From assembly GCF_016482825.1 (NCBI RefSeq), contig NZ_JAEMNV010000004.1, positions 310,001-374,000 on the forward strand: a DNA stretch of 64,000 nucleotides, written 5' to 3'. The position numbers and the translations under genes were made by a program. Source of the DNA: Antrihabitans stalagmiti (GTDB lineage Bacteria > Actinomycetota > Actinomycetes > Mycobacteriales > Mycobacteriaceae). A model generated the notes under the pieces. That model saw only the letters and a list, made by a program, of their open reading frames with translations, searched no databases and had not been told where the DNA came from. Shown here in pieces: positions 3,409-48,237 of the stretch (its first letter is position 1; every line of letters starts with the position of its first letter).

Positions 3409-4434
3409 ATGACGTCTCCTCGGTCCGCCAACAACTTTCAAGTGTTGCTCGATTCGCAGTACGGCCTCGCGACTCAGACGCAACTCGCTCCCTACGGCTA
3501 CGCCCGCCCTCGACTACGGCATCTGGTCGAAACCGGGCAGTGGGTGGCAGTCCTGCGCGGCATCTACGCCGTCACCAACGGACCGCTCACACGGCAGATG
3601 GCCTTGATGGCCGCACTTCTGTATGCCGGTCCGCGGGCAATTCTGAGCCATCGAACCGCAGCGGAAGAATGGCGCATACTTCCTGTCGATCCGACCAAGC
3701 CGATTCACGTGACCGTTCCTTACGGCGAATCCGCGAAGTGTCAATCGCCGACCTACGTCTCGCCTCCGGCGGCCGGAGCCCGACCGCTGCCACTGGTAGG
3801 CGACCTGCGCCATCCCGGCGTCGTCGTCCATCGGTCGCGAGCACAGGCGCATATCGCGGTGGACGGTATCTTCCCTCGAACCAAAAAGACCGACACCGCA
3901 ATCGATCTCGCCGTCGGCGAACCGTCGGCCCGCGCTGCGCACAGTTCTCTGATCGCAACGGTGACCAATGCGAATATCCGCTTGGACGACATCCGAGGCT
4001 GCCTGGAGCAGCGTGCGCCACGTCGCTATCGGAAGGCGTTGGATGCAGCTGTGGCGCTACTGGCTTCGGGCGTGCAGTCGGTACTCGAACATCGCTACGT
4101 CGTCGATGTCGAAGAAGCGCACGGCTTGCCTGTGTCGCGTAAGCAGAGTCCGGTCGTCGTCGACGGCAGGACGCTGTACGAGGACTGCGACTACTCGGAC
4201 GTCGGCGTTCCGCTATTGGTACGACTGGACGGCAAGCGCGTACACGCGGTTCCGCAGGTGGCCTTCAGGGACCGACGCCGTGACAATGCCGCGGAGTTGG
4301 CGGGTAGACCACGCCTGACCTTCGGCTACGAAGAAGTCACCGAGAAGCCGTGCGCTGTTGCTGCCGAGGTCGAGCACGTGCTTGCTCGCAACGGGTGGGT
4401 CCGAAAAAACCCCAGGCAGCTGCCCTGCTTGTGA
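3409..4434 (+). CDS. AbiEi-type antitoxin-like protein with C-terminal DUF559/Vsr-like fold
   Basis: 341 aa. The N-terminal ~60 residues look like the winged-helix AbiEi antitoxin domain: a sensor of TQxQL type, then a YxRxRLRHLVETGQW helix and a GIYAV strand. The C-terminal ~90 residues match the DUF559/Vsr-like nuclease fold that actinobacterial members carry (LVRLDGKRVH, then RDRRRDNAAELAG, then PCAVAAEV). Family members normally read VELDG there; this one has Arg in place of the acidic residue, so the nuclease core may be inactive. No toxin gene is adjacent. Such solo proteins are common in Rhodococcus and Nocardia and their function is unknown. It ends just before a palindromic repeat. 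Confidence 0.7.
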   Translation: MTSPRSANNFQVLLDSQYGLATQTQLAPYGYARPRLRHLVETGQWVAVLRGIYAVTNGPLTRQMALMAALLYAGPRAILSHRTAAEEWRILPVDPTKPIHVTVPYGESAKCQSPTYVSPPAAGARPLPLVGDLRHPGVVVHRSRAQAHIAVDGIFPRTKKTDTAIDLAVGEPSARAAHSSLIATVTNANIRLDDIRGCLEQRAPRRYRKALDAAVALLASGVQSVLEHRYVVDVEEAHGLPVSRKQSPVVVDGRTLYEDCDYSDVGVPLLVRLDGKRVHAVPQVAFRDRRRDNAAELAGRPRLTFGYEEVTEKPCAVAAEVEHVLARNGWVRKNPRQLPCL

Positions 4435-4485
4435 GTCTTTTCGGAGGGCCTGACCACCAAAAAGACTCACGAGCGGCGGAGCCGC
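4431..4485. repeat. Palindromic repeat, copy B (convergent, abuts tmsB stop)
   Basis: Main stem 4431-4447 (GTGAGTCTTTTCGGAGG) pairs with 4454-4470, with two mismatches on the inner side. A second small hairpin GCGGC-gga-GCCGC occupies 4473-4485. The tmsB stop codon begins at 4487. The left end overlaps the last bases of the AbiEi-like gene, so the element fills the whole gap between two convergent genes. It may serve as a shared 3' hairpin. Confidence 0.8.
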
Positions 4486-20208: not shown

Positions 20209-20264
20209 TCGTGAGTCTTTTCGGAGGTCGGGCCCTCCGAAAAGACTCACGAGCCGCTTGCGGC
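20208..20264. repeat. Palindromic repeat, copy C (5' leader of the LysR gene)
   Basis: Perfect 20-base arms at 20208-20227 and 20234-20253 (core GTGAGTCTTTTCGGAGG) with a 6-base loop. A small hairpin GCCGC-tt-GCGGC follows at 20253-20264. It lies between two divergent genes and ends just before the LysR ribosome-binding site (AGGAGG, 20268-20273). It therefore cannot be a terminator for either neighbour and would be transcribed in the LysR mRNA leader. Confidence 0.88.
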
Positions 20265-37968: not shown

Positions 37969-38108
37969 CCCAGCGTCGACGTCCCACAGGCGCCTCTCGG
38001 CAAGTGGTCGCTCGTGGCGACTATGGGGTGGGGCCCGGGGCTTGTTCGGACGCCGACAGTGTGGTCAACGACCCCTTCTGGAAATGTATTCCCGACGGCG
38101 CTCCGCGC

Positions 38109-38166
38109 CTCGTGAGTCTTTTCGGAGTGCCTGCCCTCCGAAAAGACTCACGAGCAGCGAAGCTGC
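38109..38166. repeat. Palindromic repeat, copy D (5' leader of the NUDIX gene)
   Basis: Perfect 19-base arms at 38109-38127 and 38136-38154 with an 8-base loop. A second hairpin GCAGC-gaa-GCTGC follows at 38154-38166. It ends 14 bases before the NUDIX ATG, between divergent genes, so again it is in a 5' leader rather than at a 3' end. The second hairpin differs in sequence from copy B's but keeps pairing. Confidence 0.88.
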
Positions 38167-38180
38167 CTTATGAATAGAAC

Positions 38181-38678
38181 ATGACACTCAGCTCAGGAGT
38201 AATGCTCTATCGGGTCGACGCCGACGGTGAGATTCGTGTGTTGATCGCGCACATGGGCGGTCCGTTCTGGGCTCGCAAGGACGAGCACGCCTGGTCGATC
38301 CCCAAGGGCGAGTATGTCGACGAAGAACCCGAGGTCGCTGCCGTCAGGGAGTTTCTGGAGGAGATGGGTTCGCCGGTCCCTGACGGAGAGCTGGTCGACC
38401 TGGGTCAGTTTCGGCAGTCGAGCGGCAAGAAGATCACCGCGTTCGTGCTCGAGGCCGACTTCGACGCAGCTGCCATCGTCAGCAACACCTTCGAGTTGGA
38501 GTGGCCGCCGAAATCAGGTCGTATGCAGAGCTTTCCCGAAATCGACCGTGCAGCATGGTTCGACGTGCCGACTGCTCGAACCAAGCTGGTGAAAGGTCAG
38601 ATCCCGATCCTGGATCGGCTCGTCGAGTACGTGGGGTCACGCGCCGGCGACGCGAATCAGAGCAGCCCGAACCAGTAG
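38181..38678 (+). CDS. NUDIX hydrolase
   Basis: 165 aa. The full Nudix box is present: GEYVDEEPEVAAVREFLEEMG fits G-x5-E-x7-REUxEExGU. The N-terminal GVMLYRVDADGEIRVLIAH strand and the WSIPKGEY approach are typical of diadenosine-polyphosphate/NUDT2-like or RppH-like members. The C terminus ends with a linker containing SSPNQ. The substrate is unknown. Its last 22 bases overlap, in antisense, a tiny membrane peptide gene. Confidence 0.9.
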   Translation: MTLSSGVMLYRVDADGEIRVLIAHMGGPFWARKDEHAWSIPKGEYVDEEPEVAAVREFLEEMGSPVPDGELVDLGQFRQSSGKKITAFVLEADFDAAAIVSNTFELEWPPKSGRMQSFPEIDRAAWFDVPTARTKLVKGQIPILDRLVEYVGSRAGDANQSSPNQ

Positions 38679-38716
38679 ATGGCACAGGCGAGGATGAAAA
38701 CGATCACGGTCTGCAT
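38657..38716 (-). CDS. 19-residue hydrophobic membrane peptide (unannotated microprotein)
   Basis: Open frame MQTVIVFILACAIYWFGLL from ATG 38716 to a TGA at 38657. A purine-rich GGGAGGAGAAG (38729-38719) sits 2 bases before the ATG, one of the strongest ribosome-binding sites in the window. The whole product is one transmembrane helix with a Cys and aromatic residues at the far end, like KdpF-type or other single-helix regulators. It overlaps the NUDIX 3' end in antisense. The TetR gene lies upstream on the same strand. Confidence 0.6.
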   Translation of the reverse strand: MQTVIVFILACAIYWFGLL

Positions 38717-38789
38717 AGCTTCTCCTCCCGTTACCTCCACTATGGGCACGGGTTGGGATTGCTGTCACGCAACGGTTTCATCACACGAA

Positions 38790-39425
38790 CTACGCAGCTG
38801 GAATGACCTGAACCAGGACGGTTTTGACGTTCGTCTGCAGAACGGTCGCAGCATCGTCGTCGCCTGCGAGGTGTGCGATCAGCGCCTGCTGAAACAGACC
38901 GTCGAACAGCGCGTACATGACCCGAGGGGAGACGACGGGTTCTGCGCCGAGTAGCTCGGCGTAGCGAGCCACGATGCGCCAGATCATGTTTTCGAGACTT
39001 TTGTCGATGTCTGCGACGTCGGCGCGAAAGGACTCCTCGAACATCGACTGCACCCGCAGGTCGTACCAGAGGCGGTGCATCGTTGCTTCTTCACGCAGCG
39101 TTGCGGCCATCGCGGCACCGAAGCCGGCCTCTAGTTCTTCGGGTGTTCGGGAATGGGCGACGACATCGTCGTAACGCGTGACGCAGCGTGCTTTGTAGAA
39201 CTTGACGCAATGCGTGATGAGGTCGACTTTGTCTCTGAAGTAGTAGTGCAGCACGCCGTGTGAAAACTCGGAATTCTGCGCTATCTCACGCAAACTTGTT
39301 CGCGCATAACCGAGTTCGGACAGGGTATGCAGCGCTGCCTCGGCAAGCTGATCGCGCCGTTCGGCGAACTTGTCGACCTGACGGCGCGAAATCCTGTCGG
39401 CATTTTTCTCGGCGACCGATGTCAC
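38790..39425 (-). CDS. TetR/AcrR-family transcriptional regulator
   Basis: 211 aa from GTG 39425, which has GGAGAG 8 bases upstream; longer frames cross the operator region. HTH: YARTSLREIAQNSEFSHGVLHYYF, the TetR recognition helix with HYYF. The C-terminal ligand domain is large and helical. Divergent from the SDR operon at 39653, with tandem operator-like repeats between them, so it most likely represses that catabolic operon and itself. Confidence 0.9.
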   Translation of the reverse strand: MTSVAEKNADRISRRQVDKFAERRDQLAEAALHTLSELGYARTSLREIAQNSEFSHGVLHYYFRDKVDLITHCVKFYKARCVTRYDDVVAHSRTPEELEAGFGAAMAATLREEATMHRLWYDLRVQSMFEESFRADVADIDKSLENMIWRIVARYAELLGAEPVVSPRVMYALFDGLFQQALIAHLAGDDDAATVLQTNVKTVLVQVIPAA

Positions 39426-39493
39426 TGCGTTGACTCTCCGTGCTTGCGTGCGCGGCACACTGTGCACCGCGTCGGGCAAGTGTACCGCCGCAC

Positions 39494-39556
39494 CTATGAC
39501 GTCTGTCCAGAAAAATCTTGACGACTGTCCAAAAAAGCCTTGACACTCGTCCAAAG
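39494..39556. promoter_or_regulatory. Three tandem operator-like repeats
   Basis: Three copies of an 18-base motif, consensus CTTGACgactGTCCAaA, start at 39494, 39517 and 39539, spaced 23 and 22 bases (about two helical turns). Each has GAC and GTC half-sites. They fill the space between the TetR gene and the divergent SDR gene. Copies two and three contain TTGAC, which could also serve as a -35 box. Probable binding sites for the TetR-type regulator. Confidence 0.6.
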
Positions 39557-39652
39557 TTCGAGAAGTCTGTGAGCTACATCACTTCGACGGCAACCCTCGA
39601 AACGGCGAGGTCAGCAGTCGGATTCGGCGAAATCACGGAGGCAGGGTTCTCG

Positions 39653-40456
39653 ATGAGTGTCTTTGATCTGAGCGGGCGCAAGGCGTTGGTAACCGGAGGC
39701 GCGCAAGGCCTCGGCGCGGGGATGGCAGAGGCGCTGGCACGCGCCGGTGCGGCGGTGATGATCGGCGACGTTCAGGAGGGCGCCGGCAAAGAGACCGCCG
39801 ATGCGATCGGAAAATCAGGGGCAACAACAGGTTTCGTCAAGTTGGACGTGACGAGTGACTCGGACTGGGAAGCTGCGGTCGCCGCAACTGTGCAAGAACT
39901 CGGCGGTCTGGACATCCTCGTCAACAACGCAGGCATCGAAATCTCGGCGTTGATCGTGGACATCGACCCCGACGACGTACGACGTATGTGCGAGGTGAAC
40001 ATTCTCGGCTCGTTGCTCGGTGTGAAACACGGCCTGCGAACGATGCGACCCGAAGGCGCAGCCGGTAAGGGTGGCTCGATCATCAACGTCTCTTCGGTCG
40101 CCGCAACAATCGCATTCCCCGCGATCGCCGGCTATTCGGCGACCAAGTCCGCCGTGGACCGAATGACGAAGGTCGCTGCCCAGGAATCGGGCAAACTCGG
40201 CTACGGCGTTCGCGTGAACTGCATCTATCCCGGCCTCGTCGCAACCGACATGGGCCTCGGATTGGCCTCGGACATGGCGAAACTCGGCCTGTGGCCCTCG
40301 CCTGAAGCCGCGGTCGGCGACGTCATCGGACTGACCCCGCTAGGGCGCCTGGGCGAGGTCGCAGACATGGCCGACGCGGTTGTCTTCCTCGCATCCGACG
40401 CAGCGCGGTTCGTCACCGGCATCGGACTGCCGGTCGACGGCGGCATGGGCATGTAA
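39653..40456 (+). CDS. Short-chain dehydrogenase/reductase (SDR)
   Basis: 267 aa from ATG 39653, with GGAGG further upstream than usual. NAD(P)-binding motif TGGAQGLGAG, NNAG, catalytic Ser in INVSSVAA, and YxxxK as YSATK. The C terminus GIGLPVDGGMGM is typical of classical SDRs that act on hydroxy- or keto-lipids. First gene of a three-gene set with a saccharopine-dehydrogenase-like protein and an acyl-CoA synthetase. Confidence 0.9.
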   Translation: MSVFDLSGRKALVTGGAQGLGAGMAEALARAGAAVMIGDVQEGAGKETADAIGKSGATTGFVKLDVTSDSDWEAAVAATVQELGGLDILVNNAGIEISALIVDIDPDDVRRMCEVNILGSLLGVKHGLRTMRPEGAAGKGGSIINVSSVAATIAFPAIAGYSATKSAVDRMTKVAAQESGKLGYGVRVNCIYPGLVATDMGLGLASDMAKLGLWPSPEAAVGDVIGLTPLGRLGEVADMADAVVFLASDAARFVTGIGLPVDGGMGM

Positions 40457-48179: not shown

Positions 48180-48237
48180 CTCGTGAGTCTTTTCGGAGGT
48201 CAGGCCCTCCGAAAAGACTCACGAGCGGCGTAGCCGC
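48180..48237. repeat. Palindromic repeat, copy F (between yqeY and ponA2, convergent)
   Basis: Perfect 20-base arms at 48180-48199 and 48206-48225, loop TCAGGC, then GCGGC-gta-GCCGC at 48225-48237. The ponA2 stop codon starts at 48238. The layout is identical to copy B, which also abuts a leftward gene's stop. Confidence 0.88.

Follow-up and report, generated by a model that had tools for sequence, protein, structure and literature searches.

A conserved frame for a membrane-type microprotein

The 64,000-nucleotide stretch of Antrihabitans stalagmiti DNA analysed here (the window) carries a frame of 19 codons on its minus strand whose conservation as a protein strongly supports a real protein-coding gene for a membrane-type microprotein. 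Nine genera of the sampled family, Nocardia, Rhodococcus and Antrihabitans among them, carry one copy of the gene, which is under clear protein-level selection despite its tiny size. The explanation that we hold to be probable is that the gene stands alone and encodes a 19-residue inner-membrane peptide with a single pass, which would pack against a larger membrane protein and adjust it. The data that carry this reading concern the frame, its protein-level conservation, the copy number, the upstream element and the neighbourhood; that the microprotein is expressed, resides in the membrane and binds a partner is what we infer.

The coding sequence, MQTVIVFILACAIYWFGLL, encodes 19 aa and a stop (38657-38716, minus strand), with its ATG at 38716 and its stop ending at 38657. 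A Shine-Dalgarno sequence, GGGAGGAGAAG (38719-38729, minus strand), is separated from the ATG by two bases (CT), and the end of its GGAGG core lies 7 nt before the start codon. The first-pass annotation had reported a complete frame directly 3' of a strong ribosome-binding site, and frame, coordinates and site are all as it gave them. It had also described the frame as antisense to the tail of a NUDIX hydrolase gene. This gene (38181-38678, plus strand; Pfam NUDIX, 1.5e-10) is convergent with the microprotein gene, and the description holds for the 22 bp in which their 3' ends overlap (38657-38678) and fails for the other 38 bp, which lie beyond the NUDIX stop. Genes as short as this one are under the usual limits of gene finders. 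The product is a small hydrophobic peptide with a GRAVY value of 2.1, a composition that suggests membrane insertion.

A scan of ATG frames on both strands of the 64 kb, requiring 14-30 aa, a Shine-Dalgarno motif, a GRAVY of at least 1.5 and the absence of K, R, D, E and H beyond position 4, returned the microprotein as its sole match, against 0 in 30 first-order Markov shuffles. It should be mentioned that these criteria were chosen post hoc, with the frame already seen. The count agrees with the earlier statement that such a frame is unlikely by chance, for which the conservation with its decoy control is the stronger evidence. An N-terminal extension, in frame to a GTG at 38749, was considered and rejected, as conservation begins at the ATG and the predicted transcript start coincides with the ATG in ten loci.

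Conservation across genomes

A search with the 30-aa frame gave matches in 117 of 401 family genomes at E <= 1, compared with 5 of 301 for a reversed decoy, whose best E was 0.27. Profile A2, built from 24 members, matched 119 of the 401 genomes at E <= 0.1, with one match each. At E <= 0.003 it recovered one copy in each of 115 genomes, which belong to nine of the 31 genera (g1, g10, g15, g21, g22, g23, g26, g27 and g31); four family matches at E 0.02-0.1 are partial, lie inside longer frames and are read as chance. Among the genomes listed, those of the nine genera without a match include one of g21 (G023). The first-pass annotation had made the frame and ribosome-binding site of close relatives its deciding evidence, and in all four genomes searched from the window's genus the frame is present, with an SD-like sequence before each.

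Outside the family, no convincing match was found in a sample of the order (397 genomes, searched with profile A1, which holds only members with Cys11) or of the class (394 genomes, profile A2); the matches obtained there are partial, sit within longer frames and are likewise read as chance. A pattern limited to LAC members, applied to one genome per species, identified 64 loci, all named Nocardia, Rhodococcus or Antrihabitans. Rhodococcus jostii is one of the carriers (L072). One match came from the plasmid collection; it lies in a Nocardia farcinica record of 2.66 Mb, at a place where no gene is listed. We infer vertical descent of the gene.

Selection on the peptide sequence

Selection statistics were computed on 80 distinct reading frames out of 127; these frames stem from related species and should not be counted as independent. 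The statistics give a pN of 0.195 and a pS of 0.515 (pN/pS 0.38). Mean entropy at codon positions 1, 2 and 3 is 0.72, 0.38 and 1.28 bits in the 27 frames less than 85% identical, with 1.5-1.8 bits in the flanks. The third codon positions are far more variable than the second; synonymous-biased conservation was what the first-pass annotation had expected.

The 144 loci encode 70 distinct proteins, 53 of them with 19 residues, 16 with 20 and one with 21. All 70 contain the core A...Y[WFL][WF]. The residue that follows the core alanine is Cys in 48 proteins and A, V, T, S or L in the rest, and the second residue is E or D in 66; six proteins end in R, K or H, and there is otherwise no positive charge. 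Judged from these sequences, the constraint on the microprotein exceeds what hydrophobicity alone would need, because the core and the acidic second residue are conserved, whereas V, I, L and A interchange at positions 8, 12 and 13. Conservation of one helix face was not significant (p = 0.16), and an interaction face is not demonstrated. Loci L066 and L067 were excluded from the 70-protein, selection, upstream-spacing and element-shuffle analyses, frames with another start or length from the last three of these, and L133 from the 70-protein and 103-locus reading.

A conserved upstream element and a probable promoter

The upstream stretches of the loci share a core like [GCA]AT[GC]ATGG. A pattern looser than this core, [ACG]AT[GCT]AT[GA], is found within 75 nt upstream in 90 of 103 distinct loci, and in 78 of these 90 it lies 29-45 nt before the start; the shuffle control covers the full-score element only. 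With the best site taken in each 56-nt stretch and a motif picked by eye, the full-score element is present in 77% of 91 real upstream stretches and in 1% of shuffled ones. An SD-like motif was counted in 86 of the 91 distinct upstream stretches, the motif being loose and the count including loci that look leaderless.

The spacing of the element varies. In ten distinct loci, nine from Nocardia (N. nova, N. elegans, N. africana and others) and one from g22, it stands exactly 6 nt before the ATG, and the transcript would therefore be expected to start on the ATG itself as a leaderless mRNA. Leaderless mRNAs are described as common in mycobacteria (PMC4633059). That the ATGG of the element might conceal an upstream start codon was also considered and was rejected, because the distance from the element to the gene start does not keep a constant frame.

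In the window, the -10-like hexamer CATAGT (38739-38744, minus strand) occupies the position of the relatives' conserved element; for the looser pattern, the window locus counts among the 13 of 103 loci that were missed. A separate consensus scan pairs the hexamer with a -35-like hexamer, GTGACA (38763-38768, minus strand), across a spacer of 18, and this GTGACA-N18-CATAGT was the only promoter-like site in the 1.6 kb scanned, where the shuffle mean is 0.3. The position of the -10 hexamer predicts a transcription start at 38732 (minus strand) and a 16-nt leader. No -35 hexamer is conserved across the relatives, save for a frequent C 20 nt upstream of the -10-like hexamer (37 of 46 representatives). 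In the 46 representatives the first base of that hexamer is G, C or A, never T; in this it departs from the -10 typically recognised by the principal sigma factor. Taken as a conserved sequence element, it suggests that the microprotein gene probably has a promoter of its own.

A dispersed palindromic repeat is found at 38112-38151, 20211-20250 and 48183-48222 of the window, with one arm at 4431-4445, and the copy at 38112-38151 is flanked by the divergent genes for the APC permease and the NUDIX hydrolase. The sequence GTGAGTCTTTTCGGA has 86 copies in the genome (42 forward and 44 reverse; control 0), and GAGTCTTTTCGGA-N10-TCCGAAAAGACTC is found at 14 places; the repeat looks like a REP-type element. 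In four g23 loci (L012, L013, L024 and L065), another sequence shares the GTGAGT head (GTGAGTACTT...) and directly precedes the promoter-like element. It is palindromic in L012, L013 and L024, and possibly represents a repeat family related to the dispersed palindrome.

Searches for known families

A type I toxin of Ibs- or TisB-like size and hydrophobicity, which would damage the membrane and be held down by an antisense RNA, has to be weighed here, as the 19 residues contain one hydrophobic stretch with a high GRAVY value and the 3' end of the gene overlaps a gene on the opposite strand. However, one match per genome over nine genera is not the several copies that such a toxin would lead one to expect, and the conservation is residue-specific, whereas composition should outweigh sequence in a toxin; a frame-shifted IbsC has been reported to be still toxic (PMC7192591). 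An Rfam search of 38000-40000 found nothing at E <= 1, the opposite strand has no promoter-like site in 38000-39600 (a weak test), and among viral contigs none of 10 pattern stretches was confirmed as a relative. We regard the toxin reading as unlikely.

A single hydrophobic helix of comparable kind is also found in KdpF and CydX, and the microprotein could be a diverged subunit of that type in a known complex; a KdpF-like subunit was one of the roles put forward in the first-pass annotation. In Pfam, the 30-aa frame matched only Holin_9 (PF16936), at E 0.029 and 15 bits against a cut-off of 25.3, and in NCBIfam it matched nothing. Four 20-aa members gave no Pfam match, Holin_9 included, and in NCBIfam only YajC at 0.35, below cut-off. 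Neither KdpF nor the CydX/YbgT family model was thus matched in Pfam or NCBIfam, whose models have little power at 19-20 residues, and a PDB profile search returned no chain at E <= 10. None of the neighbours that were given a name, which are part of the total, is a kdp gene. These results do not bear out the KdpF-like role, and we consider a subunit of either type quite improbable.

In the open-access full text searched, no description of the microprotein family was found and the string YWWGLL is absent. Small M. tuberculosis ORFs that have relatives in Rhodococcus, Nocardia or Gordonia are mentioned in one paper (PMC11133741), considered here by description, not sequence; the terms sought in PMC10903887, genus names included, do not occur there.

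Neighbouring genes

A TetR-family regulator gene (38790-39434, minus strand; TetR_N, 3.3e-9) lies upstream on the same strand and ends 73 nt short of the microprotein start codon. Of the loci examined, only those of the window genome and two genus relatives have it as a neighbour. The NUDIX neighbour is also present in three other genomes of the genus, and Fur or KatA is kept just behind it in two of these three relatives.

Neighbourhoods were counted over 81 of 85 loci, with identical loci counted once. Of the 81 distinct loci, 41 have a catalase gene and 41 a Fur-family gene on the opposite strand no more than 3.5 kb away, and the L039 representatives of the two match Pfam Catalase and FUR. 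A Fur or catalase gene begins within 300 nt in 32 of the 81 (hand count). This arrangement would suit an antisense or 3'-overlap RNA acting on the convergent fur-katA genes, with the peptide secondary. However, the constraint is at the level of the protein, the distance to katA ranges from 11 nt to over 4 kb, and the microprotein and the local type of catalase dissociate both ways. Among 39 genomes tested, seven (G000, G002, G003, G283, G380, G081 and G108) keep the microprotein but have no catalase more than 70% identical to the local type; in G109 the microprotein is present with no catalase match at E <= 1e-100. Three genomes (G013, G040 and G009) have an 84-85% identical catalase but no detected microprotein. 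Beside katA in these three and in G008, which has no profile match, no convincing candidate for a divergent copy was found. An RNA role on fur-katA is accordingly very unlikely in our judgement.

Catalase as a functional partner of the microprotein was rejected on the same grounds; a functional tie is unlikely because the local type of catalase and the microprotein each occur without the other. The fur-katA neighbourhood looks like an old gene order that is now eroded. At eight loci (L004, L035, L040, L050, L091, L095, L096 and L113) a Fur-family gene is near the microprotein and no catalase is listed within 4.5 kb. No constant neighbour gene that could serve as a partner was found among the loci, the neighbours differing between lineages.

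The first-pass annotation had also named a leader. As a leader or regulatory uORF, the frame would control a downstream gene through its translation. The frame is short and has a strong ribosome-binding site, and in some Nocardia loci a gene follows on the same strand: in 7 of the 81 loci it belongs to the beta-lactamase family and lies 249-283 nt downstream, and in 8 of the 81 it belongs to cluster C24 and lies 588-738 nt downstream (both hand counts). In a heuristic gene map, a same-strand gene follows in 2 of 22 loci, whereas the nearest downstream gene is on the opposite strand and convergent in the other 20. The same-strand followers differ from group to group, those in Nocardia not being one gene, and the peptide sequence itself is constrained, all of which makes a leader role highly improbable. 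A chance frame, for which shortness alone could be argued, is to all intents refuted by the conservation and the decoy control.

Proposed role of the microprotein

The best remaining of the three roles named in the first-pass annotation is the small regulator of a membrane protein, here taken to include accessory peptides; there is less support for a type I toxin, a leader peptide or a KdpF/CydX-type subunit. The accessory or regulatory peptide is favoured over a membrane-damaging toxin because of the single copy, the stand-alone position and the residue-specific conservation. We propose that the gene is read from its own promoter, which would yield a short-leader mRNA with a Shine-Dalgarno sequence in most species and a leaderless mRNA in ten Nocardia-type loci. 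The product would be approximately a helix alone, hence without a soluble domain. It probably inserts in the membrane and packs, via the conserved A10, Y14, W15 and G17, on a larger membrane protein; through this contact it would adjust that protein's activity, assembly or stability.

As a minimal helix without a soluble part, such a microprotein would have to function through intramembrane contacts, and it would offer a ready test case for them. The restriction of the named LAC-limited matches to Nocardia, Rhodococcus and Antrihabitans points to a partner or role particular to this branch. We suggest, more tentatively, that the microproteins form an undescribed family of 19-21-residue membrane peptides, which a membrane machine specific to the Nocardia-Rhodococcus branch of mycolic-acid bacteria would require as helper or regulator, and that the mRNA has moved between forms with and without a leader, with the peptide remaining unchanged; this wider proposal is possible rather than probable. 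If it is true, the family is among the shortest conserved protein genes.

Comparison with known small membrane proteins

The microprotein combines a conserved short hydrophobic frame with translation signals, and in this it belongs with the single-helix membrane microproteins, which are a kind rather than a family. It resembles KdpF, CydX and AcrZ, each of which is one short hydrophobic helix with no soluble domain and is conserved as a protein. It differs from them in having no sequence match, in the absence of a constant neighbour as a possible partner, and in being shorter. KdpF and AcrZ are longer than its 19 residues, and the length of Ibs is about 19 residues. CydX has 37 aa (PMC4325964). 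With Ibs and other E. coli type I toxins the microprotein shares its hydrophobicity and the overlap with an opposite-strand gene, but it is unlike them in its one match per genome and its residue-specific conservation, and no antitoxin RNA was found. YohP of E. coli, with 27 aa (PMC7549839), is longer and comes from a different phylum; by description, not sequence, it is like the microprotein in being a minimal one-helix membrane peptide.
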